Shown: piece by piece, positions 1,206-58,800 of the stretch | Position numbering within the stretch: the stretch's first letter is position 1 | How the letters are laid out: each line of letters begins with the position of its first letter | DNA from: Petrotoga mexicana DSM 14811 | Lineage (GTDB): Bacteria > Thermotogota > Thermotogae > Petrotogales > Petrotogaceae | DNA: 64,000 bases | Assembly (NCBI RefSeq): GCF_002895565.1 | Contig: NZ_AZRN01000005.1 | Span: 1-64,000, forward strand | Reading direction: 5' to 3' | The notes under the pieces: model-generated | The model's database searches: none | What the model was told of the DNA's origin: nothing | The model's input: only the letters and a program-made list of their open reading frames with translations | Translations under genes and position numbers: made by a program

Positions 1206-1330
1206 TAGCGCCCCTTCACCCGATCGTTAAGGGGTAAACCCCTTAAAAACCCCAAATTCAAGGTCAAAATCATTTAAAAACATGGTTTGCATACTGCAGC
1301 AAACGATCCACATCCTGAAGGATAGAGGAA
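1206..1330 (-). repeat. Dispersed GC-rich repeat copy in hydB-hydA gap
   Basis: The gap between hydB and hydA carries the TAGCGCCCCTT core (1206 onward, plus-strand reading), then a perfect hairpin TTAAGGGG-TAAA-CCCCTTAA and a second small hairpin GTTTGC...GCAAAC near 1285-1305. The same two modules recur upstream of metY (13050-13260). It lies inside a co-transcribed operon and separates hydA from its neighbour by 190 bases. Confidence 0.8.
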
Positions 1331-1343
1331 TTTTTAGCTATAT

Positions 1344-2801
1344 TTATACTATTCTTATAGCGTTAAACCTGCATGTTGAGTAACAAGACCCACATTTTAT
1401 ACACTTTTCTTGATCTATTGTATGAGGTTTTCTTAATTCACCTTGTATCGCTTCAGTAGGACATACCCTTGCACAGGCCGTACAACCTGTACAATTTTCT
1501 GGAATTATTTCGTACCTAATTAAATTCTTACATACACCAGCTCGACAGTTTCTATCCAATATATGTTCTTTATATTCATCCGCAAAATACCTATAAGTAG
1601 AGAGGATCGGATTTGGGGCAGTTTGTCCTAAACCACATAAGGAGCCATTTTTTACGACATTAGCCAAAGTTAACATATGATCGAGATCTTCCAATTGGGC
1701 ATTCCCAGAAGTTATTTTTTCCAAAATTTCTAAAAGTCTTACGTTTCCCACACGGCATGTAGTACACTTACCACAGGATTCATCAACTGTAAATTGAAGA
1801 TAGAATTTTGCAACATCTACCATACAAGTATCTTCATCCATTACAATCATTCCACCAGAACCCATCATCGAGCCTAGTGTTTGAAGGCTGTCGTAGTCTA
1901 TAGGGGTATCGAGGTATTCTTCGGGAATGCACCCTCCCGAAGGACCTCCCGTTTGAACAGCTTTGAACTTTTTATCCCCCTTGATCCCTCCACCTATATC
2001 AAAGATTATCTCTCTTAAAGTTGTCCCCATTGGAACCTCAACGAGACCAACCTTTTTAACGTCTCCAGCAAGTGCAAACACTTTTGTTCCTGGAGAATTT
2101 TCTGTTCCGTATTGTTTGAACCAATCGGCTCCATTGAGTATTATAGGTGCTATATTTGCAAGTGTTTCAACGTTGTTTATCACGGTCGGCTTTTTCCATA
2201 GGCCACTATTGGCAGGAAAAGGCGGTTTGTTGGTTGGCTCCCCACGAAGACCTTCTATCGAATGGATCAAAGCGGTCTCTTCACCACAGACAAAAGCCCC
2301 GGCTCCCAGTCTGATCTCTATATCAAAAGAAAAATTACTCCCTAAAATATTTTCTCCCAGCAATCCATAATTTTTAGCTTGTGAAATAGCAACTTTTAAC
2401 CTAGCAACAGCCAAAGGATACTCTGCTCTTATGTAAATAATCCCTTTTTGAGCACCAATTGCGTACCCAGCTATAGCCATACCTTCTAACACAGAGTGGG
2501 GATCACCCTCTAATACTGATCTATCCATAAATGCGCCAGGATCACCTTCATCTGCATTACATATTACGTATTTTTCGTCTCCTTTAGCTTGCATAGCGAA
2601 TTTCCATTTCAAACCGGTTGGAAACCCACCACCACCTCTACCTCTCAAATTTGAATCTAAAACTGTTTGAACTACCTCTTCTCTTTTTGAGTTAAGCGCT
2701 TTTGCTAGGGCTAAATAACCGTTATTTTTTAAATAATCTTCAATGTTTTCAGGATCAATATTTCCAGCGTTTCTTAAAACGATTCTCACTTGTTCAGGCA
2801 T
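1344..2801 (-). CDS. hydB: Hydrogenase/NADH-binding subunit HydB (NuoF-like)
   Basis: Flavoprotein subunit of the multimeric [FeFe] hydrogenase: binds FMN and NAD(H) and passes electrons to iron-sulfur clusters. 485 residues. The glycine-rich FMN/NADH site is visible ([15 protein letters not shown] about 52-66, [10 protein letters not shown] about 83-92, [13 protein letters not shown]), then the NuoF 4Fe-4S motif [10 protein letters not shown], and two C-terminal ferredoxin 4Fe-4S motifs ([24 protein letters not shown]). The Thermotoga HydB is longer because it carries an N-terminal thioredoxin-like 2Fe-2S domain; here that domain is a separate upstream gene 13 bases away. Ribosome binding site GGGAGG before ATG. 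Confidence 0.92.
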
Positions 2802-2814
2802 CGTTTTACCTCCC

Positions 2815-3189
2815 TCAAATTGCTTTTTTGTGGGTTTCCTCTATCAACAATTCTTCTGCGATTTTTCCTTCCACTAAATGGGTTTTTACAAGATCTTTTA
2901 CTTTCGATTTCGTAACGTTACCATACAATACTGGTTCTTTGCCAGGTTCATTAACTTCTACTGTTGGCTCAGCATAGCAGTACCCTAAACATCCTGTCTT
3001 AATAACTTCAATATTTTCTAATTTTTCTTCTTCTACCTCTTTTAGAAGCTCTTCATAAGTTTCATCAGCTCCTGCTGAGATACCACAAGTTCCCAAAGCA
3101 ACTTTTAATACAATTTTATTCTTATTTTCTTTTTCTTTGAGTTCATTTATCAACGATTCTAATTGCTCTAAACTATTTAATTTAGGCAT
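2815..3189 (-). CDS. Stand-alone thioredoxin-like 2Fe-2S protein of hydrogenase
   Basis: 124-residue (2Fe-2S) ferredoxin of the thioredoxin-fold type. Four cysteines are in the expected order: one in [10 protein letters not shown], and the pair in [13 protein letters not shown], with the first segment contributing the remaining position. The charged, helical N terminus (residues 1-28) looks like a lead helix. It sits between the NuoE-like and NuoF-like genes, where in related operons the same domain is fused to the N terminus of HydB. Probable role: an electron-relay subunit of the complex. The C-terminal tail about 25 residues is lysine/glutamate-rich. Start chosen from the GGAGG site just upstream of ATG at 3189. 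Confidence 0.85.
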
Positions 3190-3203
3190 GGAAAAACCTC
3201 CTA

Positions 3204-3713
3204 TTAACTATTTTTCTCTTTGGCTCTATACTCTCTAATTATTTTTCTTACATCGTTTCTTTTAAGTCTCCCATGTACTTTTTCCCCTATTTTTACCACC
3301 GGTGCCAAACCACAAGCACCTAAACACCTAACCGGATGAATGGAAAATAATCCATCCTCGGTTACCTCTTCTTCCTCAACATTTAAAATCTTTTTGAATT
3401 CGTCTAAGATTTCATTTGCTCCTCCCACGTAACAAGCTGTTCCTAAGCACACGCTTATAGGATACTTACCTTTAGGTTTTGTGGAGAAAAAATTATAGAA
3501 AGTCACAACACCATAAACTTGAGAAGAAGGGATCTTCAGTTTTTTGGCCACTAATTTTTGCACTTCATTTGGGATATATCCTAGATTTTCTTGAACTTTA
3601 TGCAAAACTTCAATCAGAAAACTTCTTCTTTCTTCTTCGGTTTTGTTCGTCAAATCGAGTGAATTAAGATAAGTTTCAACGTCTTTTAATTTACTCTCAA
3701 GAAGTCCATCCAT
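3204..3713 (-). CDS. hydC: Hydrogenase subunit HydC (NuoE-like, 2Fe-2S)
   Basis: 169-residue NuoE-family subunit carrying a thioredoxin-fold 2Fe-2S cluster. The C-terminal half shows the four ligand cysteines in CLGTACYVGGA and RCLGACGLAP, with VVTFYNFFSTKPKG before them, as in NADH:quinone oxidoreductase 24 kDa subunits and bifurcating hydrogenases. First gene of the hyd operon; 14 bases separate it from the next gene. Upstream is a leader of about 230 bases containing a G-rich repeat, preceded by an extended -10 promoter near 3950. Start ATG at 3713 has GAGGAGG six bases upstream. Confidence 0.92.
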   Translation of the reverse strand: MDGLLESKLKDVETYLNSLDLTNKTEEERRSFLIEVLHKVQENLGYIPNEVQKLVAKKLKIPSSQVYGVVTFYNFFSTKPKGKYPISVCLGTACYVGGANEILDEFKKILNVEEEEVTEDGLFSIHPVRCLGACGLAPVVKIGEKVHGRLKRNDVRKIIREYRAKEKNS

Positions 3714-3754
3714 TCATTTCTTCCTCCTCGTATAATTAGGTTTTATTACACATA

Positions 3755-3900
3755 TAGCGCCCCTTTTGCCCCGCTCCCCACCCAGAAGGATGAAGAAACT
3801 TTACCCCTTTCGCCCCACTGCCCACCCTTCTATGGAAGGGACCTTCGGTCCCTTAAATCCTGTATCCTACGCATAAAGAAGGGGAAAGTTTCTGACCACA
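3755..3900 (-). repeat. G-rich dispersed repeat in hyd operon leader
   Basis: The 317-base gap upstream of hydC holds a full copy of the repeat. On the sense (minus) strand the core reads GGGTGGGGAGCGGGGC followed by an AAAAGGGGCGC arm: four runs of three or more G with loops of 1, 3 and 5. Nearby is the satellite hairpin GGGACC-TTC-GGTCCC (3838-3852) seen in other copies. It lies downstream of the likely promoter, so it would be transcribed as 5' leader. Confidence 0.85.
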
Positions 3901-3947
3901 CACATAAGGAAACAAGTTAAAAAATTCACTAATAATATACCTGATTA

Positions 3948-3956
3948 ATTATACCA
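3948..3956 (-). promoter_or_regulatory. Extended -10 promoter for hyd operon
   Basis: On the minus strand TGGTATAAT fits an extended -10 (TGn plus TATAAT). The -35 position is poor, as often with extended -10 promoters. Same TGGTA(T/A)AAT form occurs before the SDR gene and the aminopeptidase. Confidence 0.55.
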
Positions 3957-4029
3957 TTTTTTATCTTTTGGTAATTTAATAAAATTTAAACCACTTATTA
4001 CTTTTTTCAGAAATCGAAACAAAATAATC

Positions 4030-5175
4030 TTAAAATTCTACCCAACTAAAGCCTTTTTCTGAACTTTCTACACACCTTTCTATAAACCGCATTCCCTCCA
4101 CTCCGTCTTCTACAGTGGGGAAATCTAAGTCTCTTTGTTCTAAAAGTTCTCCTTTTTTCTTTTTTGTAATTGCGCTTATAAACTTATCGTATACCCTTGC
4201 AAATGCTTCAACGTAACCTTCCTGATGCCCACCAGGAGTCACATAATCGTTTTTAATAAAATCATCAACCTCTTCGCTTCCCCTTGATAAAGTTATAAAA
4301 GGGTGGTTAACTTTTGAGATCTTTAAATAATTTGCGTGCTCTTGTGACCATTCTATAGATCCTTTTGTTCCATATATACCGATATCTAAAGTATTTTCAT
4401 GGCCCATAGCAATTTGAGATGTCCAGTATATGCCTTCTGCCCCATTATCATAATTTATTAGTATAGATGCATTATCATCTAGCCTATCTGGCTCAACAAA
4501 CTTGTCCATTCTGGCATTTAAGGACTTTATCTTCAACCCTGTTAAAAAAGAAACTACGCTTTCCACATGTACCCCTATATCAGCGACACAGTTGGATACA
4601 CCCGAAACTTTTGGATCCGATCTCCACTCGTGACGAGGATTTTTACCGGCAAAGGGGACCTTTGCCATCCACTCGCTTAAGTATCGAGCATTGATAAATC
4701 TAATCTCACCTATTTCCCCTCTTTTAATTAACTCTCTGGCGTATCTTAACATTGAATAACCTGTAAAGGTGTAAGCAACCGCAAAAAGTAGATTGTTTTT
4801 TCTTGCTAACTGTTTTAGTTCTTCAGCTTCTTTTAGAGTTATGGTTAACGGCTTTTCACACATCACATTTATTCCAGATTCTAAAAATTTTTTTGCCACT
4901 TCATAATGTGAACTGTTGGGGGTGACAATGGATACAAAATCTATTTTATCGGGTCTTTTAGACTCCTCCTCAGCCATTTCTTCATAATTTTTATACAATC
5001 TTTTCTCATCTATTTTTAACTCTTTGCCTGTTGCCAAAGTGTTTTTGAAGTTTCTAGAAAAGCTTCCACAGACTAATTCTGCCTTCCCGTGTAGATTTAT
5101 AGCTTTTCTGTGGACTATACCTATTTGAGAGTCTTTACTTCCACCTACCATTCCATAAGTCAATCTTTTGAACAT
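4030..5175 (-). CDS. Gfo/Idh/MocA family oxidoreductase (copy 1)
   Basis: 381-residue NAD(P)-dependent sugar or cyclitol dehydrogenase-like protein. The N-terminal Rossmann fold has a GMVGGS start (residues 8-13) and the family lysine motif CEKPLT at about 110; the C-terminal half is the alpha/beta substrate domain (DIGVHVESVV). The fold is clear, the substrate is not. It lies 139 bases downstream of a paralogue with the same motifs, presumably one operon, so the pair may act on successive or related sugars. The spacer holds a repeat copy. GAGGGG ribosome site before ATG. Confidence 0.85.
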   Translation of the reverse strand: MFKRLTYGMVGGSKDSQIGIVHRKAINLHGKAELVCGSFSRNFKNTLATGKELKIDEKRLYKNYEEMAEEESKRPDKIDFVSIVTPNSSHYEVAKKFLESGINVMCEKPLTITLKEAEELKQLARKNNLLFAVAYTFTGYSMLRYARELIKRGEIGEIRFINARYLSEWMAKVPFAGKNPRHEWRSDPKVSGVSNCVADIGVHVESVVSFLTGLKIKSLNARMDKFVEPDRLDDNASILINYDNGAEGIYWTSQIAMGHENTLDIGIYGTKGSIEWSQEHANYLKISKVNHPFITLSRGSEEVDDFIKNDYVTPGGHQEGYVEAFARVYDKFISAITKKKKGELLEQRDLDFPTVEDGVEGMRFIERCVESSEKGFSWVEF

Positions 5176-5232
5176 ATTTTACCCCTCCTCTTATTTGAGT
5201 TTTTACTTTCTTTAGCATCTCTAACCTTTCTT

Positions 5233-5290
5233 TAGCGCCCTTTCACCCCGCTCCCCACCCATAAGGATAAAGGAGTATGGTTTTGCCCCG
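5233..5290 (-). repeat. G-rich dispersed repeat between paralogous oxidoreductase genes
   Basis: Core copy 5233-5267 (plus reading TAGCGCCC...CCCACCCATAAGGA). Sense strand shows GGGTGGGGAGCGGGG plus a further G-run, matching the four-G-run pattern. It is followed by a half-diverged second unit (GCCCCGAATTGCACCC). Located 58 bases upstream of the downstream gene's start. Confidence 0.85.
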
Positions 5291-5314
5291 AATTGCACCC
5301 TATCGAGTTTGGTT

Positions 5315-6409
5315 TTAAAACTTTACCCAAACGCTCCCATTTTTTGAACTTTCTACACATTTTTCAATAAAACTCATCCCTCTTAATCCCGCATTTACAC
5401 TTTGAAAATGGGCATTATCGTTGGTTATAATTTCACCGTTCTTTTTATTTATTAAATCGGTGATAAACATGGAATAAGTATTTTTGAAACCTATGTTCGT
5501 TCCAGGAATTTCATTCACATTTTGAACTATCTCTTCTTTTTGGTCTTCACGCAAAATCGTTAATTTGTTTGCTTGATTAAAACTCCATTTCAATGTAGCT
5601 TCTGAACCAAACACAGAAAGACTAAAATTGTTGTTCTCTCCAACAGCAATTTGAGACATAAAAAGTAATCCCTTACTTTTATCTTTGAAATTTATCATCA
5701 CGGTGGAATTATCTTCCAATTTTCTTGATTCACCGAAAGTATCAAGGCGTGCACACAAACTATCGATCTCTTTTCCAGTAAGATATGAAACCATGTTTTC
5801 CACATGACTGCCTATGTCGGCTGTAGTATTAGCCAAACCACTTTGGTTTGGATCCAACCTCCATTGAGCTTGTTTGTTTTCATCTTCGATCTTTTTTGCA
5901 AGCCATCCTTGAATATATTGTACATTAACGAATCTTATTTCACCTAACTTACCTTTTTCTATTTTGTTCCTCGCTAACGAGACCACCGGATATCCCACGT
6001 ATGAATACGTTACACACACCAAAAGATCGTTATCATCTGCTAACTGTTTTAGTTCTTCAGCTTCTTTTACTGTTGTTGTTAGTGGTTTATCGCAGACAAC
6101 ATTTATACCTTTTTCTAAGAAGGCTTTAGCTATTTCATAGTGGAAAGCATTCGGAGTAGCAATAACGACAAAATCAATTTTATTTTTCTTTTTGCTCTCC
6201 TCTTCGGCCATTTCCAAGTAATTTTCATACAATCTATCTTTCTTTATACCCCATTTTTTGCCTGTTTTTAATGTTTTTTTATAATCCCTTGAAAAACAGC
6301 CACTAACTATGCTTGCCCTTCCATCTGATAATATTGCGTTTCTATGTGCTTCGCCTATCATAGAATCTATGGATCCACCAACCATTCCGTAGGTTATTTT
6401 TTTTGACAT
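5315..6409 (-). CDS. Gfo/Idh/MocA family oxidoreductase (copy 2)
   Basis: 364-residue paralogue of the gene at 4030-5175, with the same opening (GMVGGSIDSMIGEAHR) and blocks LKQLADD, DIGSHVENMVSYLTGKEID. The catalytic EKP motif is CDKPLT here, a common variant. Cofactor and substrate unknown; a cytoplasmic NAD(P)-dependent dehydrogenase of a sugar or inositol is a reasonable guess. First gene of the pair, with its own promoter (6443-6451) divergent from the SDR gene. GGAGGTG site seven bases before ATG. Confidence 0.85.
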   Translation of the reverse strand: MSKKITYGMVGGSIDSMIGEAHRNAILSDGRASIVSGCFSRDYKKTLKTGKKWGIKKDRLYENYLEMAEEESKKKNKIDFVVIATPNAFHYEIAKAFLEKGINVVCDKPLTTTVKEAEELKQLADDNDLLVCVTYSYVGYPVVSLARNKIEKGKLGEIRFVNVQYIQGWLAKKIEDENKQAQWRLDPNQSGLANTTADIGSHVENMVSYLTGKEIDSLCARLDTFGESRKLEDNSTVMINFKDKSKGLLFMSQIAVGENNNFSLSVFGSEATLKWSFNQANKLTILREDQKEEIVQNVNEIPGTNIGFKNTYSMFITDLINKKNGEIITNDNAHFQSVNAGLRGMSFIEKCVESSKNGSVWVKF

Positions 6410-6442
6410 AACACACCTCCATTAAAAGATTCCTTTTTATTT

Positions 6443-6451
6443 ATTTTAACA
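6443..6451 (-). promoter_or_regulatory. Extended -10 promoter for oxidoreductase pair
   Basis: Minus strand TGTTAAAAT about 35 bases before the start codon at 6409. Divergent from the plus-strand promoter at 6478. Confidence 0.4.
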
Positions 6452-6477
6452 TAAATGTTTTTTCTTTTAAAAAAATA

Positions 6478-6486
6478 TGGTATAAT
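6478..6486 (+). promoter_or_regulatory. Extended -10 promoter for SDR gene
   Basis: TGGTATAAT, a perfect extended -10, about 80 bases before the start at 6565. The -35 position is only a T-run. Confidence 0.55.
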
Positions 6487-6564
6487 TTAAATACGGCAAA
6501 TTTAGTCTGTTTTTTCACCAGTTATCATTAAAAATGTTTGATTCAAAAAGGAGGGATCTATAGC

Positions 6565-7320: not shown

Positions 7321-7340
7321 TTATGAACCGTAGTATAAAA

Positions 7341-7366: not shown

Positions 7367-7368
7367 AT

Positions 7369-7575: not shown

Positions 7576-7586
7576 ATTCATCTTTT

Positions 7587-11701: not shown

Positions 11702-12991
11702 TTAATTACTAGTTGCTTTAGTTAGAGCTGAATCAATATCCTCGATCAAATCTTCTATGTCTTCTATCCCAATGGATAGTCTAATCATATCAGGACTTAC
11801 CCCAGAAGCCAACTGTTCTTCTTCACTTAACTGCCCATGCGTAGTACTAGCCGGATGAACGGCGAGTGATCGAACATCCCCAACATTAGCAACATGGGAA
11901 AATATTCTTAACCCTTCAATAAACCTTTTTCCTGCTTCTACTCCACCTTTTACTCCAAAGGAAAGCATGCCTCCAAAACCATGTTTTAGATATTTAATTG
12001 CATTTTTATGAGTTTTATGATTTATCAATCCCGGATAATTTACCCAACTCACCCTCGAATCCCCGGATAGAAATTCTGCAATTTTCATTGCGTTAGAACA
12101 ATGTCTTTCCATTCTCAAACTCAATGTTTCAATGCCCTGCAATATTAAAAAAGAATTGAAAGGACTTATTGAAGTACCTAGATCTCTTAACCATTGGGAA
12201 CGAGCTTTCGAGATATAGGCAGAGTTGCCAAATCTTTTATAAAAGCTTATCCCATGAAAAGCAGGGTCTTCTTCAGTTAACATACCGAATTTACCATTGT
12301 TCCAGTCGAAATTTCCACTATCAACGATAATTCCACCAATTGAATTACCGTGCCCGTTCAAATATTTGGTTAAAGAGTGAACAACGATATCAGCACCAAA
12401 TTCGAAAGGTTTGCACAGGTAAGGTGTGGCGAAGGTGTTATCTACGATCAAAGGAATACCATTCTCATGAGCTATCTTAGAAATCCGCTCAAAATCAGGT
12501 ACAGAAAGTTCGGGATTCCCGATAGTTTCCACATAAACCGCCTTTGTCCGATTATTTATATTATTTTTCAAGCTATCCATATCGTCAATATCAAAGAAGT
12601 TGGGCTTTATTCCAAATTTACTCAAAGAATTTTTGAATAATGTGAATGTTCCACCATACAAAGAGCTTGCTGTAAGTATTTCATCCCCTTCTTCCATAAT
12701 GTTTAACACCGCTATCGCTTCTGCAGCTTGCCCCGAGGAAGTGGCTAAAGCACCTACACCACCTTCCAAAGCAGCAACTCTTTTCTCCAACACATCGGTC
12801 GTTGGGTTCATTATACGTGTATATATATTCCCGGATTCTTCCATGTTGAAAAGCCTAAGGGCATGAGCTGAGTCTTCAAAGGTATAAGATGAAGTCTGGT
12901 AAATTGGTACTACGTTAGCCCCGGTGGTTGGCTCTTTTTCAAAACCCGCATGAACCATTAAAGTATCAAAGTTGTGATTTCTTTCTTCCAT
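11702..12991 (-). CDS. metY: O-acetylhomoserine sulfhydrylase
   Basis: 429-residue PLP enzyme of the Cys/Met metabolism family; makes homocysteine from O-acetylhomoserine and sulfide. Seen: substrate region YTRIMNPT (about 61), [11 protein letters not shown] phosphate loop, [12 protein letters not shown], and the PLP lysine in [13 protein letters not shown] (about 210). ATG at 12991 chosen over an in-frame one at 13006, because AGGAGG lies between the two. First gene of metY-metA. The leader contains a long array of repeats and small hairpins; I could not recognise a SAM riboswitch in it. Confidence 0.93.
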
Positions 12992-13039
12992 GTTTTTCCT
13001 CCTCATTTGTTTAAAATTATAGTGATTTGAGAAACTCTA

Positions 13040-13345
13040 AAACTTGTGTTAGCGCCCCTTTGCCGAATCGTTAAGGGGTAAACCCCTTAAGATCCCCGTG
13101 CATCATTTGCTTCGCAAATGAGAATTTGGATATTACTTCTAAAGCATTATGAAAATGCTTTTTGCATAAAACGGCAAAAGCTTCGCAAAGGTATTATAAA
13201 GAACCATTTTGCACAAAGCTGCAAAAAAACATAGTTTGCACAATACAGCAAACTCTCCTCACCCAGAAGGATGAAAGAGTTTCAACCTCTTTACCCTACT
13301 TCCCACCCATAAGGAAGGAGGACTAAGGCTCCATTCCCACAAGGT
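13040..13345 (-). repeat. Composite repeat block upstream of metY
   Basis: Most of the 13.0-13.47 kb gap. It holds the TAGCGCCCCTTTGCC core (13050 on), the TTAAGGGG-TAAA-CCCCTTAA hairpin (13071-13090), three to four small stem-loops built on TTTGC...GCAAA (TTTGCTTCGCAAA near 13110, others near 13190-13255), and a diverged second unit with CCCACCCATAAGGA (around 13300). Same modules as upstream of hydA, hydC and infA. Confidence 0.8.
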
Positions 13346-18355: not shown

Positions 18356-19397
18356 AGGCAAGGAAAATGAAAGCACACTTAGTAGAAAAAAAATAATCAT
18401 TAATCTAATCGTAGTTTTAATTATTGGTTTAGTCATCAACATTGTGATCTCATTTTTTGCAGATTTCCAAGAAACCTTCGATACTCTTAAAACTGTCAAT
18501 CTATTTTTTATTGTGAAGGTATTCGTAGTTTTCTCTATGGCTTATTTGATAGATTTAATAAGATTGTACATAGTAACATTAAGTTTCCACAAAAAAATAA
18601 AGTTTAAGGATGCCATTTATAATACCATTTCATACTATTTTATGTCAAATATCACCCCAATGGCTAGTGGTGGTCAACCATATCAAATATACCATCTTAC
18701 AAAATTAGGAATAGAATCCACTTTGGCTACAAATATAGTGTTGTCTAGGCTTGTAGAAAATTTACTGTTCTCTTCTGCCGTTATCTTAATTTTCATAAGA
18801 AGAGTAATGAGTATTTTAGGCAGAATAGGGACTGGAAAATATATACTTATCATTGGTATTATAGCCGCTTTAGGGTTCTCAGCCTTGTTAATTTTACTAT
18901 TTTTAAACCCAAAATTGATATATAAGTTGTTTAATTTTTTACTAAAGATATTTCCATTAAAAAACAAATCGAAATTCGAACAAAGATTACAAAAGTTAGA
19001 AAATTGGTTAGAAGAGCTAAAGTTAAGTATTAAAACACTATGGGTCGAAAAGGCACATATAGTTACGTTTGACTTTATACTGGGAGGCTTCATCGTTTTT
19101 TTTCATTCTTTGGGTTTGTACATTGCCCTGACATCAATTACATCAAGAAGCTACAGCATTCTTGAAATATTCATACTTTTTATAATAATGAATTTTGTTA
19201 TCTATTATATACCTACCCCTGGTTCCACAGGTGGAGTAGAGACATTATATGGTATTGTCCTTGCCAGTTTTATGCCTGGAAGATTCGTTTCTACAACTAT
19301 ACTGTTGTGGAGATTCGCAACTTATTATTTACAAATAGCTTTTGAAGGGGTAATCTTACTTATGACAAGGACAAAAGAAAAAGGATTTTCAACTTAA
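18342..19397 (+). CDS. Flippase-like membrane protein (UPF0104/LPG synthase TM domain)
   Basis: 351 residues with seven to eight hydrophobic segments. The family signature is visible as SNITPMASGGQPYQIYHLTK in the middle and YIPTPGSTGGVETLYG near the C terminus; related domains form the transmembrane part of MprF and the YbhN group, thought to flip lipids. No lysyltransferase domain is present. Partner of the overlapping glycosyltransferase; last gene of the lspA operon. Its 3' end overlaps the convergent GlpX-like gene by 4 bases, with no terminator between. AGGAGG site before ATG. Confidence 0.82.
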   Translation: MSEDKGKENESTLSRKKIIINLIVVLIIGLVINIVISFFADFQETFDTLKTVNLFFIVKVFVVFSMAYLIDLIRLYIVTLSFHKKIKFKDAIYNTISYYFMSNITPMASGGQPYQIYHLTKLGIESTLATNIVLSRLVENLLFSSAVILIFIRRVMSILGRIGTGKYILIIGIIAALGFSALLILLFLNPKLIYKLFNFLLKIFPLKNKSKFEQRLQKLENWLEELKLSIKTLWVEKAHIVTFDFILGGFIVFFHSLGLYIALTSITSRSYSILEIFILFIIMNFVIYYIPTPGSTGGVETLYGIVLASFMPGRFVSTTILLWRFATYYLQIAFEGVILLMTRTKEKGFST

Positions 19398-20422
19398 TTA
19401 ATATACTCGTTTCTCAAATCGATTAATTTTTTATCCTCTCCCAAAGATTTTAGCCTTATAGTTTTATTTTTCAAATTATGCATAGACTCGATTTTTCTTA
19501 TAGTAGCACTCTTACTTCTCATCGTAAGTGTATGAGTGTAAGCAAAACCTTTTACAAATTTAACCCCTTTTAAAAGATCTCCATCGGTTATACCCGTTGC
19601 AGAAAATATTACATCTTCCCCACCAACTATTTCATCGGTATAAAAGATTTTTTCAAGATCCCAACCTTCTTCCTTGATCGATTGTTCTTCAATTCTATCC
19701 CTTGTCCATAATTTCATTTGAATTTCTCCACCTAACGTTTTTAAAGCAGCAGCCGAGAGTATCCCTTCAAGAGTCCCTCCAATACCAACATAGATATCCA
19801 CCCCACTATCGGGAACGGCGGTGGCTATGGCAGCTGTGATATCCCCATCACTTATCAATTTTATTCTTGAACCAGCTTCTTTAATCTCTTCTATAATCTC
19901 TTCATGCCTTTGCCTATTCAAAATAACAAAAGTTAGTTCCGTAGGTGCAATTCCCAAAACCTCACTTGCAATTTTTATATTCTCTTTCATAGGTTTTCTC
20001 AAATCCAATTTACCTTTTAATTCACGACCTACAGCAAGCTTATAAGAATAAAAAGTCGGCAGTAATTTAATACCTCCCGACACCGTGGCAGCAACGCAAC
20101 TTATGGCATTAGGCAGACCAAAAGCAGCCAATTTCACTCCGTCTATAGCATCAACAGCTAAATCCATTTCGGAAGTGTTATCTTGCCAACTACCCACTTT
20201 TTCACCAACGTACAACATATTTGAATTTTCTTTATCGTATTTACTCATTACTATATTCCCTTTAAAGTCTATGTAGTCAAACATACCTCTCATAGCATCG
20301 ATGGAACTATGCTTAATCATTTCCAGATTACCACAACCCAAGTATAAACTACTCATCAAAGCAGATGCTTCTGTAACCCTTACAAAATCCATAGTCAACT
20401 CTGGATAAATCTTCTTTTCCAT
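19394..20422 (-). CDS. GlpX-like protein (divergent class II fructose-1,6-bisphosphatase)
   Basis: 342 residues with full-length similarity to GlpX: DFVRVTEASAL, LYVGEKVGSWQ, DLAVDAIDGVKLAAFGLPNAI, YVGIGGTLEGILSAAALK, IFSATGITDGDLLKGV. Class II FBPases hydrolyse fructose-1,6-bisphosphate in gluconeogenesis. However, two of the metal ligands known for E. coli GlpX are changed: the Asp33 position is Lys37 (MIKHSSIDAMR) and Glu57 of the GEGE loop is Lys61 (VMSKYDKEN). The Asp85 and Glu213 equivalents remain. So activity as an FBPase is doubtful; it may act on another phosphate ester or be regulatory. Own promoter with a repeat-bearing leader. Confidence 0.8.
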   Translation of the reverse strand: MEKKIYPELTMDFVRVTEASALMSSLYLGCGNLEMIKHSSIDAMRGMFDYIDFKGNIVMSKYDKENSNMLYVGEKVGSWQDNTSEMDLAVDAIDGVKLAAFGLPNAISCVAATVSGGIKLLPTFYSYKLAVGRELKGKLDLRKPMKENIKIASEVLGIAPTELTFVILNRQRHEEIIEEIKEAGSRIKLISDGDITAAIATAVPDSGVDIYVGIGGTLEGILSAAALKTLGGEIQMKLWTRDRIEEQSIKEEGWDLEKIFYTDEIVGGEDVIFSATGITDGDLLKGVKFVKGFAYTHTLTMRSKSATIRKIESMHNLKNKTIRLKSLGEDKKLIDLRNEYIN

Positions 20423-20478
20423 AAAAGTCCCTCCTCACAAAAATTTTTAATTGTCTTTAAGAACTTTAAAACTTGTGT

Positions 20479-20595
20479 TAGCGCCCTTCCCCCGCTCCCC
20501 ACCCCATAAGGAAGTGAAATCAGTGTTTTACCCCGCAGCCCACCCTTTTTTGAAAATCTGTTTATTTCCAAAAGCTTGTGTTAGCGACCCTTTGC
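20479..20595 (-). repeat. G-rich dispersed repeat in glpX-like leader
   Basis: Core 20479-20512; sense strand GGGGTGGGGAGCGGGGG then AAGGGCGC: four G-runs. A degraded second unit (CCCGCAGCCCACCC) follows and a partial third copy (TTAGCGACCCTTTGC) at 20580. All lie between the promoter at 20626-20654 and the start at 20422. The rest of the 411-base gap up to 20800 is AT-rich with nothing else recognised. Confidence 0.85.
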
Positions 20596-30636: not shown

Positions 30637-30684
30637 TTATTTTTAAAATACCTTTGGGGGGTGCTGGGCAAACTCAACTCCTTT

Positions 30685-30757
30685 TTCCTTATGGGTGGGG
30701 AGCGGGGTAAAGCAAACTCCTTTTTCCTTATGGGTGGGGAGCGGGGGAAGGGCGCTA
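30685..30757 (+). repeat. Tandem pair of G-rich repeats, inverted relative to others
   Basis: Two units, 30685-30712 and 30725-30757, each with TTATGGGTGGGGAGCGGGG on the plus strand and separated by a CAAACTCC spacer. Elsewhere in the window the G-rich strand is the minus (sense) strand; here it is the plus strand, upstream of and pointing away from the atp promoter. The 30637-30860 gap also holds the hairpin at 30795-30819. Confidence 0.88.
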
Positions 30758-30794
30758 TAACGACTTTTATAAAGACAATGAAAAATTATTGATA

Positions 30795-30819
30795 GGAGAC
30801 GACCAATTAGGGCGTCTCC
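30795..30819. terminator. Hairpin, probable terminator of broken upstream gene
   Basis: GGAGACGACC / GGGCGTCTCC stem with one A-G mismatch and loop AATTA. TTTTT follows four bases later on the plus side; on the minus side a T-run comes about 12 bases later. May end transcription from the PrcB-like remnant. Confidence 0.55.
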
Positions 30820-30860
30820 CAATTTTTGAAAATATAAAGCTAGATATTTGCTTAAAAATA

Positions 30861-34712: not shown

Positions 34713-35632
34713 TTTTGTTGGATTTGTATAATAGGTTAAGTGAGTATTTTAAGAATAGATACGGTGAGAGGGTGCAAAGGTTACCAATCAACGCTGGATT
34801 CACTTGCCCAAACAAAACAGGAGAAAGAGGTAAGGGTGGATGTATTTATTGCGATTTAACAGGTAGCGGTTTTGCAGCTTTTAAGCCTAAGGTAAGTATT
34901 GAAGAACAGGTTAAGGAAATGATTAATAGATACGAGAAAAAAGCTAATAAATTCCTTGCCTATTTTCAAGCAAACACTAATACTTACGCCCCTGTTGATG
35001 AATTGAAACAAAAGTATGAAAGTAGTTTAATAGACGATAGAATAGTAGGTTTAGATGTATCAACCCGCCCGGATTGTGTCCCAGATGAGGTAATAGCGCT
35101 TTTAAAAACTTTTAAAGATAGAGTTGATGTTTACGTTGAGCTCGGTGTTGAGAGTATTAACCCCAATACGTTAAAGTATATGAACAGAGGGCATTCTTTA
35201 GCAGAAGTTATAGATTCTGTAAATAGGTTAAAAAAAGCTGGATTAGAGGTTATCCTGCATTATATAATAGATTTTCCTTGTGATACATTAGAAGATGTGA
35301 AAGAGATGGCTAAGGTTAGTTCCGCCTTGAAGGTTGACGGTGTAAAATTGCATTCTTTGTATATCGTTGAGAATACAAAACTTGCCGATTTGTATAGAAG
35401 TGGAGAATTTGTACCTTTGACGCTGGATGATTTTGTAGAAAGGGTAATTACTTTCTTGGAATACTTGGATCCACAGGTCGTGATTCATAGGCTTGTTGCC
35501 GATCCTCCAAAAACCGGAACGTTACATGGAAATTGGGGAATTTCTAAAATAAAGATTTTAAACTTAATTGAAGATACGATGAGAGAGAGGGGTTCCTATC
35601 AGGGAAAATATTTTAACTATTTGAATAATTGA
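34706..35632 (+). CDS. Radical SAM protein, YhcC/TIGR01212 family
   Basis: 308 residues. N-terminal INAGFTCPNKTGERGKGGCIYCD carries the radical-SAM cysteines in the wide-spaced arrangement of this family (C-x-n-CxxC), followed by FQANTNTYAPVDEL, GLDVSTRPDCVPD and YVELGVESIN. Binds 4Fe-4S and SAM; the reaction is not known to me. No ribosome site is visible, so translation probably couples to the gene it overlaps. Its stop is directly followed by the RNase P RNA. Confidence 0.88.
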   Translation: MVILLDLYNRLSEYFKNRYGERVQRLPINAGFTCPNKTGERGKGGCIYCDLTGSGFAAFKPKVSIEEQVKEMINRYEKKANKFLAYFQANTNTYAPVDELKQKYESSLIDDRIVGLDVSTRPDCVPDEVIALLKTFKDRVDVYVELGVESINPNTLKYMNRGHSLAEVIDSVNRLKKAGLEVILHYIIDFPCDTLEDVKEMAKVSSALKVDGVKLHSLYIVENTKLADLYRSGEFVPLTLDDFVERVITFLEYLDPQVVIHRLVADPPKTGTLHGNWGISKIKILNLIEDTMRERGSYQGKYFNYLNN

Positions 35633-35955
35633 AGTAGGACGGTTGATCGCGAGTAGGCATACTTGGCCTATTTTGAGGAAAGTCCGGACTCTAAGGGCAA
35701 GATACTGGTTAACAACCAGAGGGAGTGATCCCTGAATAGGGCCATAGAAAAGAAGACCGCCGAAAGGCAAGGGTGGAACGGTGAGGTAAGAGCTCACCAG
35801 TGTCAGAGCGATCTGACAGCTTGGTAACCTCTATCTTGAGCAAGGTCAAGCAAGAAGGCCAGAGGTTTGCCCGCCGAGAGACTTGAGTGTCCGCCTTCTG
35901 GGTAGACCGCGTAGATTAATGGTCAACTTGACAGAATCCGGCTTATAGTCCTACT
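35633..35955 (+). ncRNA. rnpB: RNase P RNA (bacterial type A)
   Basis: The catalytic RNA that matures tRNA 5' ends. Recognised by GAGGAAAGTCCGGACTC near the 5' end, AGACCGCC in the middle and CAGAATCCGGCTTATAG near the 3' end (P4 partners). The closing P1 helix is AGTAGGAC (35633-35640) with GTCCTACT (35948-35955). About 323 nt. The 5' end starts right after the TGA of the radical SAM gene. Confidence 0.95.
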
Positions 35956-35961
35956 GATATA

Positions 35962-38599: not shown

Positions 38600-38719
38600 A
38601 AAACTTGATTTTATGTGTTAGCGCTCCTTCGCCCCGCTCCCCACCCATGTGGAAGAGGGACCTGCGGTCCCTTAAACCCCACAACTTAGCCTTAAGGATG
38701 ATGAGAAGCTCAGTTAGCT
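38600..38719 (-). repeat. G-rich dispersed repeat in rpsM-rpsK gap
   Basis: Core 38619-38652; sense GGGTGGGGAGCGGGGC with the last G-run degraded (AAGGAGCGC). Satellite hairpin GGGACC-TGC-GGTCCC at 38657-38671. Fills most of a 139-base gap in the middle of the alpha operon. Confidence 0.85.
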
Positions 38720-39320: not shown

Positions 39321-39551
39321 TTAATTCTTGTTGACTTTTTCTCTTTTCACTATTCTTCCTTTGCTTAAATCGTAAACGGAGACTTCCACAGTAACTCGGT
39401 CTCCTGGAAGTATTTTTATAAAATTCTTTCTCATTCGCCCAGAAATGTGGGCTAATATTTCATGCCCATTATCTAATTTAACTTTAAAAGTAGCGTTAGG
39501 TAAAGCTTCAATTATATATCCTTGCATAACAACGACGTCTTTTTTAGCCAA
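39321..39551 (-). CDS. infA: Translation initiation factor IF-1
   Basis: 76 residues from TTG 39551: [51 protein letters not shown], the OB-fold IF-1. AAAGGAGGGATTGTA sits just before the TTG; the frame open further upstream runs into repeat sequence and is not coding. Confidence 0.95.
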
Positions 39552-39599
39552 TACAATCCCTCCTTTTTCAGGGATTTTTACTGTCATTAGAAACCGTAA

Positions 39600-39900
39600 C
39601 TGTAAAGTACGATTTAGCGCCCTTCCCCCGCTCCCCACCCATGTGGAAGGGGGACCTGCGGTCCCTTCTTAGACCCCTCAACTTACTCATAAGGATAAAA
39701 GAATCTTTATCCCTTTTTGAAGACGGGATCCCACCCTTAGGAAAAGGGTATGGAGGGCTTCGCCCTGTAACCTTTTTAAAACCAGATACTTAATTTTGGA
39801 TAATGATTTTTAGAACTTTTTATGTAAGCTGCGCTTAGTCATTATTTGCGCCCCTTCGCCCACAGCCCACCCACAAGGATAAAAGGGATAAAGTAAGGAT
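39600..39900 (-). repeat. Two repeat copies in map-infA gap
   Basis: The 382-base gap upstream of infA holds a full copy at 39615-39648 (sense GGGTGGGGAGCGGGGG, AAGGGCGC), the GGGACC-TGC-GGTCCC hairpin at 39651-39665, a diverged middle unit with GGGC-TTC-GCCC, and a second copy at 39846-39879 in which GCCCACAGCCCACCC replaces the usual core. No gene in the gap. Confidence 0.85.
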
Positions 39901-47749: not shown

Positions 47750-47926
47750 ATGCTTTAGCGCCCCTTTGCCCCGCTCCCCACCCTAAGGAAGAACACAATA
47801 TTTTGTCCCTTCATTTCGTAGCTCCATCCATAAGGATGGGGAAAGATATCTTCACTCCGCTCCTTACCTTTTAGGATGAGCAGAAGACTTTGCCTCTTCA
47901 TCTGGTAGCCCATCCATTTGGAAACA
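47750..47926 (-). repeat. G-rich dispersed repeat in rpsC-rplP gap
   Basis: Core 47756-47789; sense GGGTGGGGAGCGGGGC with AAAGGGGCGC, four intact G-runs. Two degraded units follow up to the rpsC stop (CCATCCATAAGGATGGGG, then CCGCTCC...CCCATCCAT). Sits in the S10 operon, where this junction is normally only a few bases. Confidence 0.85.
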
Positions 47927-49330: not shown

Positions 49331-49364
49331 CTACTGCACCTCCTTGCTTTTCATGTTTTAGACA

Positions 49365-49423
49365 CTTTAGAAACTCTAAAGCTTCTGTTAGCGTCCCTTT
49401 GCCACGTTTCCCATCCAAAGTGT
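49365..49423 (-). repeat. Degenerate repeat copy in rplB-rpsS gap
   Basis: TTAGCGTCCCTTTGCCACG at 49389 and TTTCCCATCC after it: the core with several substitutions that destroy the G-runs. Preceded by the same ACTTTAGAAACTCTAAAGCT flank seen at metY and glpX-like copies. Confidence 0.7.
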
Positions 49424-51226: not shown

Positions 51227-51242
51227 TTTTTAATTGACCTCC

Positions 51243-52332: not shown

Positions 52333-53532
52333 TTATTCAATTATTTCTGTAACAACACCGGCTCCTACTGTCCTTCCACCCTCTCTTATAGCGAATCTCA
52401 TCCCTTCTTCAAGGGCTACAGGGTAAATCAGTTCTACTGTCATATTGATATTGTCACCAGGCATTACCATCTCTGCACCGCTGGAAAATTCTACAAGAGT
52501 TCCTGTAACGTCTGCTGTTCTAATATAAAACTGAGGTCTGTAACCTTTGGTAAAGGGTGTGTGTCTTCCTCCCTCTTCCTTTTTCAATACGTATACCTCA
52601 GCCTTGAATTTTTTGTGAGGAGTAATTGAACCTGGAGCGGCGAGGACTTGACCTCTTTTTACTTCATCTTTTTCTATACCTCTTAAAAGACATCCGACGT
52701 TGTCTCCAGCTTCACCTTCATCCAATATCTTTCTAAACATCTCAACACCGGTTACAACAGTCTTTTTTGTTTCATAGCTCAAACCAACTATTTCAACTTG
52801 ATCTCCAGTGTGAACAACACCTCTTTCGATTCTTCCAGTAACAACCGTTCCCCTTCCAGTAATGCTGAAAATATCTTCTATGGGCATTAAGAAAGGCTTA
52901 TCAGTTTCTCTGACTGGATCTGGAAAGTAATTATCAATCGCATCTAGAAGTTCGTATATCTTTTGTGTCCAAGGACCGTCTGGGCTGTCTTCTTCCAATG
53001 CTTTTAGGGCAGAACCTTTAACAACTGGGACTTCATCTCCAGGAAATTCGTAGCTACTTAGGAGATCTCTAACTTCCATTTCTACTAAGTCTATTAATTC
53101 TTCGTCATCAACCATGTCAACTTTGTTTATAAAAACAGCTATAGCAGGAACGTTAACCTGTCTTGCCAACAAAACATGTTCCCTTGTTTGTGGCATAACA
53201 CCATCAGTTGCGGCTACAACCAAAATAGCTCCATCCATTTGAGCTGCCCCAGTTATCATATTTTTTATGTAGTCCGCATGACCTGGACAATCTATATGTG
53301 CATAATGCCTTTTTTCTGTTTGATATTCAATGTGTGAAACGTTGATGGTGATTCCCCTTGCTTTTTCTTCAGGAGCTTTATCTATCATGTCAAAAGGTGT
53401 AAAATCTGCCCAGCCTTTGTAAGATAAAGCCTTGGATATAGCGGCGGTTAAAGTTGTTTTCCCGTGGTCAATATGACCGATAGTTCCTACGTTCATGTGT
53501 GTCTTTTCCCTAACAAACTTCTCTTTAGCCAT
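52333..53532 (-). CDS. tuf: Elongation factor Tu
   Basis: 399 residues; GTPase motifs [21 protein letters not shown] and SALKAL, with effector [11 protein letters not shown]. Delivers aminoacyl-tRNA to the ribosome. GAGGAGAT site; 34 bases after fusA. Confidence 0.98.
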
Positions 53533-53566
53533 TGTTCTATCTCCTCCTTATAAATTATTATTGAAC

Positions 53567-55654: not shown

Positions 55655-55679
55655 AACAATCCCTCCTAAAACTGCTATA

Positions 55680-56147
55680 CTACCATCTGAAATGTGCAAA
55701 AGCTCTATTCGCTTCAGCCATCCTGTGAACGTCTTCTTTCTTTTTTACGGCAGGTCCCGTATTGTTGTACGCGTCTATCAGTTCTTGAGATAATTTACTA
55801 ATCATATCTCTTCCTTTTTTTGATTGTGCAGAAGTAACTATCCATCTTATAGCTAAAGATGTGGCTCTGTTTTCAGGTACTTCAAAAGGTACTTGATATG
55901 TTGAACCCCCAACCCTTCTTGATCTTACTTCTACCACAGGTTTAACATTATCTATCGCTTTATGAAAAGCCTCTATTGGATCTTCTTTTGTTGCTTCAGC
56001 CAATCTTTCCAAAGAAGAATACACTATTTTTTGAGCTAAAGATTTTTTCCCATCATACATTAACCTGTTTATAAATTTAGAAAGTAAAATATCTCCGTAA
56101 ACGGGATCTGGAACTATGTTTCTTTTCTCAGCAGTTCTTCTTCTCAT
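55680..56147 (-). CDS. rpsG: Ribosomal protein S7
   Basis: 155 residues; [35 protein letters not shown] and [21 protein letters not shown] site. Usual translational regulator of the str operon. Confidence 0.97.
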
Positions 56148-56166
56148 TCAGTAAAGAACCTCCTTA

Positions 56167-56541
56167 TTAAGCCTTTGGTTTTTTGGTACCATATTTACTT
56201 CTACTTTGTTTTCTACCTTCAACTCCAGCAGCATCCAAAGCTCCTCTGATTATCTTATACCTTACACCAGGTAAATCTTTTACCCTTCCACCTCTTACCA
56301 AAACGTTAGAATGTTCTTGTAGGTTATGACCTTCTCCAGGTATATAACAAGTTACTTCAATTCCATTCGATAGTTTAACCCTTGCAATCTTTCTTAAAGC
56401 TGAATTAGGTTTTTTCGGGGTCATAGTTGATACCCTTACACAAACACCTCGTTTTTGAGGGTTACCTCGTAATGCAGGAGATTTGGTCTTTTTCTTTACA
56501 GATTTTCTTCCATATCTTATTAATTGATTAATCGTTGGCAC
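56167..56541 (-). CDS. rpsL: Ribosomal protein S12
   Basis: 124 residues; [14 protein letters not shown] start, [15 protein letters not shown] with the lysine linked to streptomycin response, [10 protein letters not shown] and [17 protein letters not shown] start at 56541. The only strong ribosome site (AAGGAGGTGA) is about 58 bases upstream, beyond a hairpin. Confidence 0.97.
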
Positions 56542-56549
56542 TTAGATTT

Positions 56550-56608
56550 CTCTCATTTCAAGGGAAGCCACTAAATAAGTGCCCTCAAAAATGAGAGTTC
56601 ACCTCCTT
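56550..56608 (-). promoter_or_regulatory. Hairpin between Shine-Dalgarno and rpsL start
   Basis: Minus strand: AAGGAGGTGA (56608-56599), one base, stem CTCTCATTT (56597-56589), an inner arm with AGGG/CCCT and CACT-TATTT-AGTG, closing stem AAATGAGAG (56558-56550), eight bases, then GTG. Folded, the effective spacing becomes about 9 bases. Unfolded, only a weak GAGAG is near the start. Confidence 0.7.
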
Positions 56609-56747
56609 CTGCTTTATTTTAATTTATATTAGTAAAATATATATATTTTTCGTATATTTGAAAAAATAAGAAAACGCCAGTGGATATTTTACATTATTAG
56701 ACCTTAATTAAAAATTAATTAAATATAACAATTTAAATAATTTATCG
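56609..56747 (-). other. AT-rich gap upstream of rpsL
   Basis: Very AT-rich; probably holds the str-operon promoter (TATAAA-like hexamers around 56625) but none is convincing. No gene. Confidence 0.3.
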
Positions 56748-58745
56748 TTATTTATAATTGATTTTCAAACGGTTGACCATTCCCTCAGGAATTTTTTTGA
56801 TAAAATCGTTTTCCTTTTTTACAAAATAAAATGAATTCCTTAAATAAGGGTTGGTCGTTCCAGTCAGTTGTTTCAAAATGTATAATTCATTCTTTGCCCT
56901 TGTTATGGCAACATAGAAGAGCCTTTCTTCTTCATCTAATTTTTGTTCTTTAATTGCAAGTCCGTTGGGAAAATCTCCTGGATTCACCGATATGAGAATA
57001 ACTACTTTCCACTCCAACCCCTTTGCTCCATGAATCGTTGTGAGAGTTAACTTATTCTCATCATTGACCCCGTTCGTGGCGTTCTTTTTTTCATCGTTCG
57101 CGGGTATTACCCCTAGCTCTTCACTGAGCGTCAAATCTTCTATAAAAGCACCCACGGAATCGTATCGACTGGCAATTTCACTGAATCTTTCAATATCCAT
57201 GTTCCTTGATTTAGAATCAGTAAAAGTTAAGAAAGAATATTCTTGGTAGAAATCTTGATAAATGACATCTATCAACTCATCAGGACTACTTTCTTTCTTT
57301 TCAAAAAGTTTTGTCAATAATTCCAGGGGTGTTTTGAACTTTTTTATTTCAGTTTCCTTCAATATATTTGAGATGTTATCGTTTTCCTCATTTATTCGAG
57401 TTTCTATCTCTTCATAGATCTTTGATGCAGTTTTGTTACCAATCCCAGGAAATAATTTTAAAACTCTCATCCATGAAATCTTATCCAAAGGATTGTTTAA
57501 TACCTTTAAAAAAGCCAATATATCTTTAATATGTGCGGTTTCGATGAATCTCAATCCCGATAGTATTCTGTAAGGAATACCTTTTGAATCCAATTTTTGC
57601 TGTAATACCATAGATAGTGAATGTGATCTATATAGTACAGCGATATCTTTGTAATCTAAACCTTCTTTTAATTTATCTTTTATGATTTTGGTTACGGCAT
57701 CGGCTTGTTCCAAATCGTCAAAAGTTTCCACAACAAAAGGTTTTAAATAACTTTTTCTTATAGGCTTGAGGACTTTAGGTACAGAGTTAGAAGGTATTAA
57801 ATGATTAATAAAACCTACTATATCAGAGGTACTTCTGTAATTACTTTGTATTTTGAAAACTTTTGTTCTGTCATCTTCTATAAAATCTTTTACGTTTTTA
57901 AATAAAGCTCCTCTAAAAGAATATATGCTTTGAGAATCGTCTCCAACAACTATCAAATTTCCATGAACCGAGGATAAAGCCTCAACCAATTCAATTTGAA
58001 TTTTGTTCGTATCTTGAAATTCGTCAACTAAAACATATTTAAATTGGCTTGAACACTTGTTTAGTACTTCTGGATGAGTTTTGAATAAAACTAAAGTATT
58101 TACTAATAGATCGTCATAGTCCATGGCGTTCATATCTTTTTTTAATTGGGTATATATACCCCAGATTTGTTCAATATCTCTTTCAAAATTCAACAAATAG
58201 GGAGCTCTTTCAAGTATGGCTTCTCTTAAAGAGGTTAATGTATTACATGAATAGCTTATAATTTTCATTATTACTTCTTCTTTGGGAAGTTTGTAATTAT
58301 CACTGATTTCCTTGATGTACTCGCTTTTAGCCATTTTCAGTAAATCTTTTGAATCTTCTTTGTCGAGAATGCTGTAATTATTTTTGTAATCTAAAATCGT
58401 AGCATACCTTCTGAGAATAGAATTACATATATGATGAAAGGTACCTGCAAGCATTTTGTCCATGTTTCTGTTAGTTACATTCTTTACTCTTTCTATCATT
58501 TCCTTTGCTGCCGCTCTAGTGAAGGTAACTAGTAAAATATTCTCAGGTTTAACTCCATTATTCAACAAATAGGCAATTTTATAGGTTATTACTCTAGTTT
58601 TACCAGAGCCAGGACCCGCAACTATTATCGATCTTCCTTCTGATTTTATAACAGCTTCTTTTTGTTCCTCATCTAACTCATTTTCTAGAAAAGAGGGGAA
58701 CCTTTTTTCCAAAAAGAGGAAATCATTCCCCTTATTTTTCTCCAT
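56748..58745 (-). CDS. UvrD/PcrA/Rep family DNA helicase
   Basis: 665-residue superfamily 1 3'-5' helicase. Motifs in order: I AGPGSGKTRVITYK, Ia LLVTFTRAAAKEM, II VLVDEFQDTN, III VVGDDSQSIYSFRG, IV SNYRS, V LTTIHGAKGLEWKVV, VI ERLFYVAITRAKNELYI. Roles in repair or replication restart; which orthologue is unclear. Last before rpsL in the direction of transcription, behind rpoD. Confidence 0.93.
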   Translation of the reverse strand: MEKNKGNDFLFLEKRFPSFLENELDEEQKEAVIKSEGRSIIVAGPGSGKTRVITYKIAYLLNNGVKPENILLVTFTRAAAKEMIERVKNVTNRNMDKMLAGTFHHICNSILRRYATILDYKNNYSILDKEDSKDLLKMAKSEYIKEISDNYKLPKEEVIMKIISYSCNTLTSLREAILERAPYLLNFERDIEQIWGIYTQLKKDMNAMDYDDLLVNTLVLFKTHPEVLNKCSSQFKYVLVDEFQDTNKIQIELVEALSSVHGNLIVVGDDSQSIYSFRGALFKNVKDFIEDDRTKVFKIQSNYRSTSDIVGFINHLIPSNSVPKVLKPIRKSYLKPFVVETFDDLEQADAVTKIIKDKLKEGLDYKDIAVLYRSHSLSMVLQQKLDSKGIPYRILSGLRFIETAHIKDILAFLKVLNNPLDKISWMRVLKLFPGIGNKTASKIYEEIETRINEENDNISNILKETEIKKFKTPLELLTKLFEKKESSPDELIDVIYQDFYQEYSFLTFTDSKSRNMDIERFSEIASRYDSVGAFIEDLTLSEELGVIPANDEKKNATNGVNDENKLTLTTIHGAKGLEWKVVILISVNPGDFPNGLAIKEQKLDEEERLFYVAITRAKNELYILKQLTGTTNPYLRNSFYFVKKENDFIKKIPEGMVNRLKINYK

Positions 58746-58780
58746 GTATTTACACTCCTATTAAATATCATATTGTATAT

Positions 58781-58800
58781 TTGCACCCCTTCGCCCGTTA
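58781..58800 (-). repeat. Fragment of the dispersed repeat at rpoD stop
   Basis: TTGCACCCCTTCGCCCG directly abuts the rpoD stop codon: a 17-base stub of the repeat core, between rpoD and the helicase gene. Confidence 0.55.

Follow-up and report, generated by a model that had tools for sequence, protein, structure and literature searches.

The 64,000-nucleotide stretch that opens contig NZ_AZRN01000005.1 of Petrotoga mexicana DSM 14811 (Thermotogota), here called the window, contains copies of a dispersed repeat whose sense strand reads GGGTGGGGAGCGGGG...AAGGGGCGCTAA. This repeat is probably (at a rough probability of two in three) a family of small, modular interspersed repeats that is specific to the genus, has expanded recently, and occupies transcribed leaders and intercistronic gaps, just upstream of the Shine-Dalgarno (SD) sequence. 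The host is a thermophile growing near 58 to 60°C, and its genome (labelled G000) spans 2.13 Mb in 36 contigs. Five congeners served for comparison: G001 (taken as Petrotoga mobilis; one contig of 2,169,548 bases), G002, G003, G004, and G005. Among these, G005 is the closest relative of P. mexicana, and G003, the most diverged, was used as the outgroup. Counts of arrays, positions, and G-quadruplex (G4) motifs refer to approximately 1.21 Mb of the P. mexicana genome and the first 1.6 Mb of that of P. mobilis, and the six-genome view of leaders extends over one 14-kb region. Copies no more than 120 bp apart were merged into one array, and genes were called by a simple codon-score script whose individual starts may be off.

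Copy number, distribution, and modular anatomy

The 15-base core of the repeat, CCCCGCTCCCCACCC, is matched 11 times in the window with at most three mismatches, against 0.26 expected from shuffles, and 110 times genome-wide with at most one mismatch, where the reversed control gives 0. The dispersed family that the original prediction had proposed from the window is therefore real. At two mismatches, P. mobilis contains 131 copies, G002 74, G004 76, and G005 153, and the outgroup G003 contains none. In 55 less closely related genomes of the class, the core occurs only as a single isolated GC-rich match in one genome, and a scan of all GTDB genomes retrieved only eight isolated matches in unrelated taxa, from a collection in which near relatives are possibly missing. 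A phage origin was rejected, as viral contigs hold no match to the core. Several assembly contigs start or end in the core, which is the expected behavior of a repeat. No description of this Petrotoga repeat family was found in the open-access literature searched, most subscription journals lying outside that search.

The tandem unit reads CCTTAT-GGGTGGGGAGCGGGG-YRAAGG on the sense strand and is present in one to four copies with a unit-to-unit distance of 37 to 49 bp, so that arrays differ by tandem growth. Several pieces recur upstream of the units, namely H (AAGGGACCGCAGGTCCCTT), C (AGGGCGGAGCCCT), P (AAGGGGTTTACCCCTT), K, and L, and a tail, GTTTTAGAGTTTCTAAAGACAGTA, stands downstream and precedes the SD sequence. 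Pieces H, P, and K are hairpins whose pairing lies above that of arm-swapped controls (z = 4.5, 3.6, and 4.9, respectively), with some two-sided compensatory changes. Covariation between tandem units is not significant (z = −0.8). An RNA hairpin of the tail was rejected as well, given that its columns pair no better than independence predicts, though half-swapping gave z = −3.1. A leader peptide starting at the ATG in CCTTATGGG was also discarded: this ATG is missing from roughly half of the copies, and the stops do not share a position. The family has what defines small interspersed repeats, that is, many dispersed non-coding copies built from recombined modules. A second set of repeats, made of TTTTGCAGCTTTGTGCAAAATGG and CATTTGCTTCGCAAATG hairpins with compensatory changes, occurs in the same mosaics (window positions 13100 to 13260 and 1253 to 1300).

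The tail by itself is common in other Petrotoga leaders, and in the window it is found at 13024 to 13043, 20453 to 20472, and 49363 to 49382. In a genome of the sister genus (G011), TTTTAGAATTTCTAAAG is present in 164 copies at one mismatch. Because the tail motif is abundant in this sister genus, which lacks the G core, its distribution indicates that the tail is older than the core. The tail of G011 is palindromic, TTTTAGA(A/G)TTTCTAAAG, and several same-strand pairs of it lie approximately 220 bp apart, perhaps as the ends of a separate short element.

Orientation, position, and turnover in leaders

Of the intergenic arrays, 95 of 98 in P. mexicana and 70 of 73 in P. mobilis have their AAGGGGCGCTAA end facing the start of the following gene (binomial p ~1e-24 and ~1e-17, respectively). 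The near-uniform orientation upstream of starts that had been seen in the window thus extends genome-wide, and the random orientation and position that the original prediction held to be incompatible with its reading were not seen. Several of the exceptions adjoin miscalled starts or have no coding start downstream. The distance from core to start peaks at 40 to 80 nt, and convergent gaps hold a single array in each species (1/98 and 1/73), fewer than expected from the intergenic length that these gaps make up (p = 0.02 and 0.004). A GGAG or GAGG SD sequence precedes 93 of 105 array-adjacent genes versus 1750 of all 2583 genes, the start caller favoring SD sequences in both sets.

Of the 23 divergent short-distance cases, 15 have a TATAAT sequence no more than 150 bp upstream of the array, and none has one between the array and the start. 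Among genes without the element, TGNTATAAT peaks 40 to 60 nt before the start, and an independent report describes P. mobilis promoters, read on the reverse strand, as ATTATA(N)18GTCAA (PMC5217627). Because the promoters that can be located lie upstream of the array, the arrays would be part of the transcribed leader, and the G-rich strand would be the one present as RNA, which agrees with the earlier suggestion that the motif is transcribed.

A fixed sequence at a fixed distance from starts would also suit operator sites of a global DNA-binding regulator near promoters. Copies, however, occupy positions past the promoter and within operons, where they separate ribosomal genes that run in the same direction; the genes downstream of arrays have a mixed set of functions, and the sites turn over rapidly. 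An operator role is thus highly improbable.

This turnover is evident in orthologous leaders. Among 818 reciprocal best genes of P. mexicana and P. mobilis (median protein identity, 94.7%), the core is present in the leaders of both species in 36 cases, in P. mexicana only in 36, and in P. mobilis only in 15. Many of the differing leaders are clean indels whose junction often falls immediately ahead of the SD sequence, 13 to 37 nt from the start codon. At window positions 5175 to 5315, a 102-bp block is flanked by AAACTC direct repeats, whereas P. mobilis lacks the block and keeps one AAACTC; the block is absent in G003, partial in G002, and present in G004. Four gaps of the ribosomal-protein operon were compared in up to six Petrotoga species. 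The gap before infA spans 10 bp in G003 versus 200 to 513 bp in the other species, and that before rplP spans 45 bp in G003, 105 bp in G002 and G004, 169 bp in G001, and 221 bp in G005. Before rpsS, the gap measures 30 bp in G003, 33 bp in G005, and 146 bp in G001, and before rpsK it measures 82 bp without the motif in G003 versus 78 to 281 bp with the motif elsewhere. Modules have been swapped within these gaps, their order being different in nearly every species. Since the outgroup gaps are short or empty and module order varies by species, the family appears to have arisen after the split from G003 and to be still moving. The comparison with sister species that had been proposed thus yields clean presence and absence between orthologous leaders in a family limited to the genus and missing from the outgroup. 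Together with the strict orientation and position, this favors the first of the two readings originally offered, a small mobile repeat with a site preference.

Copies in the window and the four-G-run motif

The copies in the window lie on the minus strand unless stated otherwise. Nine of the 13 coordinates originally listed for the family have four G-runs (3769, 5246, 20490, 30693, 30732, 38632, 39626, 39848, and 47769) and four do not (1206, 13050, 49389, and 58781), while second units at 3813 and 20531 and a unit at 13294 had been overlooked. The array at 3753 to 3855 is composed of two tandem G units (cores at 3769 to 3783 and 3813 to 3827) and an H-type hairpin, with TGGTATAAT standing upstream of it, in the leader of a NuoE/HoxE-like subunit gene (3204 to 3713). 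One unit (core at 5246 to 5260) and a tail occupy 5231 to 5297 in the leader of an oxidoreductase gene (4030 to 5175), and two units (cores at 20490 to 20504 and 20531 to 20545) and a tail occupy 20453 to 20545 in the leader of glpX (19394 to 20422).

Within the ribosomal-protein operon, a unit and an H hairpin (GGGACCTGCGGTCCC on the plus strand) lie at 38619 to 38673, upstream of rpsK (S11). A unit and an H hairpin are also found at 39600 to 39667, upstream of infA (IF-1), and an additional unit (GGGTGGGCTGTGGGCGAAGGGGCGC in sense) lies at 39840 to 39890 in the same gap of approximately 350 bp, which is 10 bp long in the outgroup. The start of infA, a gene called at window positions 39321 to 39587, falls within the tail module (TTTCTAATGACAGTA). 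As the infA family match begins at residue 15, this annotated start is probably wrong, and translation probably begins some 40 nt farther downstream. A unit at 47756 to 47797 precedes rplP (L16), and a degenerate unit (GGATGGGAAACGTGG, near 49389) with a tail at 49363 to 49416 precedes rpsS (S19), at a site that is empty in both G003 and G005.

The G core is missing from two further copies. At 1205 to 1250, upstream of the gene for the N-terminal part of an [FeFe] hydrogenase-like subunit (170 to 1153), the AAGGGGCGCTAA end is fused to the P hairpin module (AAGGGGTTTACCCCTT). At 13024 to 13064, in the leader of an O-acetylhomoserine sulfhydrylase gene (11702 to 12991), a tail and the AAGGGGCGCTAA end are followed by the P hairpin, with a degenerate G unit farther upstream in the same intergenic mosaic (13285 to 13322). 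A stub (GGGCGAAGGGGTGCAAA in sense) at 58781 to 58798 stands upstream of a UvrD/PcrA-like helicase gene (56748 to 58745). On the plus strand, two tandem units with a 39-bp period at 30658 to 30760 are not succeeded by a coding start. In this region (30658 to 30830), the units are followed by an SD-like AGGAG and then by a terminator-like hairpin, and it is perhaps a leader that lost its gene or a small RNA. No curated Rfam riboswitch or leader model matches the repeat in the window, where the sole match of the covariance models at gathering threshold is the bacterial RNase P RNA class A (RF00010, 217.9 bits) at 35631 to 35961 on the plus strand.

Bacterial G4 leader regulators carry four G-runs on the sense strand of the 5′ leader. 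The Petrotoga repeat shares this arrangement, and differs from them by its high site turnover and by the lack of preferential conservation of the runs. Four runs of at least three Gs with loops of 1 to 7 bases are present in 139 of 165 copies. The family makes up 123 of the 129 such motifs in the sampled P. mexicana genome (118 of 124 when only intergenic motifs are counted) and 87 of 90 in P. mobilis. The motif itself, as originally described, is thus borne out by most copies. These counts and the fixed sense orientation in leaders would fit a conserved cis-regulator, in which translation or transcription is controlled by a G4 formed in either the sense RNA or the non-template strand of the DNA, and the leader copies are maintained by selection.

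Conservation does not follow this expectation. In 52 diverged copies, compared without the core as anchor, the consensus is kept at 0.83 to 0.92 in the G-run positions, but the loop bases G9 and C10 are kept equally well (0.88 and 0.85), and the fourth G of the second run is kept at only 0.21. The variable positions of the core are 3, 7, and 8, a pattern expected of subtypes. In orthologous copies, 15% of G-run positions differ, which is as frequent as in the loops (17%) and more frequent than in the remaining leader (8 to 10%), core differences being partly due to replaced modules. Preferential conservation of G-runs over loops was therefore not found in either copies or orthologues, and an apparent G-run bias proved to be an artefact of misregistered copies that was gone on proper alignment. 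Half of the sites are unshared between close species. Folding with the G4 option of ViennaRNA at 60°C placed a G4 in the minimum-energy structure of 1 of 103 leaders, a rough figure given that G4 energies are imprecise at this temperature. Formation of a G4 at the repeat is possible, though its G-runs are not singled out by conservation. The structural-regulator reading of the original prediction consequently fares less well than the motif, and a conserved G4 regulator is improbable.

Origin and relation to known repeats

The reading as a small interspersed repeat family suggests how the arrays may have formed. Each block would be inserted whole, with the tail GTTTTAGAGTTTCTAAAGACAGTA at its end, insertion being preferred to ancestral presence because the outgroup G003 is without arrays. 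The inserted blocks would then be altered by tandem duplication and by recombination at short homologies, and may persist in leaders because promoter and SD sequence remain intact. The one-sided orientation would come from insertion aimed at the SD-proximal leader, helped by the removal of copies whose transcripts would carry the C-rich strand, on which Rho might load. Such removal is plausible because Rho is encoded in the P. mexicana genome. Any effect on expression, through mRNA stability or ribosome access, would be a putative by-product.

Selection might also act alone, with random insertion in both orientations followed by loss of the copies that give C-rich RNA, through Rho loading and polar effects. 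The C-strand is C-rich and G-poor, so that it may resemble a rut site, rho is present, and operonic positions, where polarity is most harmful, predominate. Under this process, convergent or untranscribed gaps should retain copies in either orientation, but these gaps are nearly empty and the arrays cluster close to starts. Rho-driven removal is for this reason insufficient by itself, and selection alone is rather unlikely; the best account is a preference for SD-proximal leaders combined with selection.

Several observations weigh against a mobile family of this kind. The Y1/RAYT transposase (PF01797) is found in none of the six Petrotoga genomes, by which a Y1/RAYT origin was rejected, and no autonomous or parent copy with matching ends occurs in 1.2 Mb of P. 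mexicana and 1.6 Mb of P. mobilis. No target-site duplication of constant length was observed, junction repeats ranging from 0 to 16 bp. The lack of a constant duplication, of the Y1 transposase, and of an autonomous copy argues against a plain REP element or miniature inverted-repeat transposable element (MITE). A 5′ end that matches the tail as an inverted repeat (CTTTAGAAAC/GTTTCTAAAG, 10 bases) is found in only about 10 of 163 arrays, and the presence of this end pair in some arrays is compatible with a MITE ancestry. Deletion between short repeats, instead of insertion, may explain some of the indels. At rpsS, P. mexicana and G001 have a filled site and the closest relative, G005, an empty one, so that loss or repeated gain occurs too. 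P. mobilis contains six near-identical genes that, judged from sequence, encode IS110-like transposases (G001:C1:574510-575772 and five more).

Spread by way of RNA would account for the lack of a constant duplication. Pieces of leader RNA would be copied by a reverse transcriptase, for instance that of a resident group II intron, and the products would be inserted into other leaders. Copies made in this way would lie in sense orientation, with a constant 3′ end and irregular 5′ ends. Inserts indeed tend to share the tail and vary at their 5′ ends, and reverse transcriptases are present in all five carriers (in G005 only broken) and absent from G003. This correlation rests on six genomes, however, the introns lie in unrelated loci without repeat modules, and tail-less inserts occur. 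Nor is there a known mechanism that would direct such spread to SD-proximal sites, and RNA-templated spread is quite improbable. Group II introns with reverse transcriptase are found at the ends of contigs G000:C34 and G000:C32 and at G001:C1:460698, 1344329, and 1358843. Their parts were rejected as the source of the modules, with only chance-level matches at up to four mismatches.

REP/BIME elements are GC-rich hairpins in intergenic mosaics, a feature that the Petrotoga repeat shares. It differs from the REP/RAYT system in the absence of the Y1 transposase and in its 5′ leader position, which contrasts with a position 3′ of genes. The nearest architecture is that of the BOX elements of Streptococcus pneumoniae (PMC3049150), which likewise combine end modules with tandem middle modules in varying number, are genus limited and shorter than 650 bp, form hairpins when transcribed, and vary between strains. 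This likeness is one of architecture, with no sequence descent claimed. BOX elements carry terminal inverted repeats and target-site duplications and are over-represented in convergent gaps (16 of 86 counted; PMC3049150), whereas the Petrotoga repeat avoids these gaps (2 of 171), is approximately 97% one-sided in orientation, has no constant target-site duplication, and has a four-G-run sequence as its middle module. MITEs, including Correia/NEMIS and ERIC, are also short, non-coding, multicopy, and intergenic, with palindromic parts and presence or absence in close relatives (PMC10969869), but no consistent terminal inverted repeat, target-site duplication, or parent transposon was found for the Petrotoga repeat. 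Prokaryotic MITEs are typically intergenic, and Correia elements lie mostly immediately upstream of genes, with orientation not mentioned (PMC10969869).

A stronger claim, that the repeat is a new mobile or self-spreading sequence inserting only into untranslated mRNA leaders, in sense and before the SD sequence, by a leader-aimed mechanism (RNA-templated or SD guided), is unlikely; if true, such an element could load even ribosomal-protein operons. Small bacterial repeats usually gather where they are least harmful, such as convergent gaps. The Petrotoga repeat does the opposite, being confined to a place critical for expression, in one orientation, and even inside ribosome operons. This confinement points either to an insertion mechanism that recognizes leaders or to a cost that removes all other arrangements, and the close relative G003, which is without the family, allows a comparison for both alternatives. 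As almost every G4 motif of the genome stems from this repeat, in defined leaders, the repeat offers a natural test bed for the effects of G4s and hairpins on mRNA.

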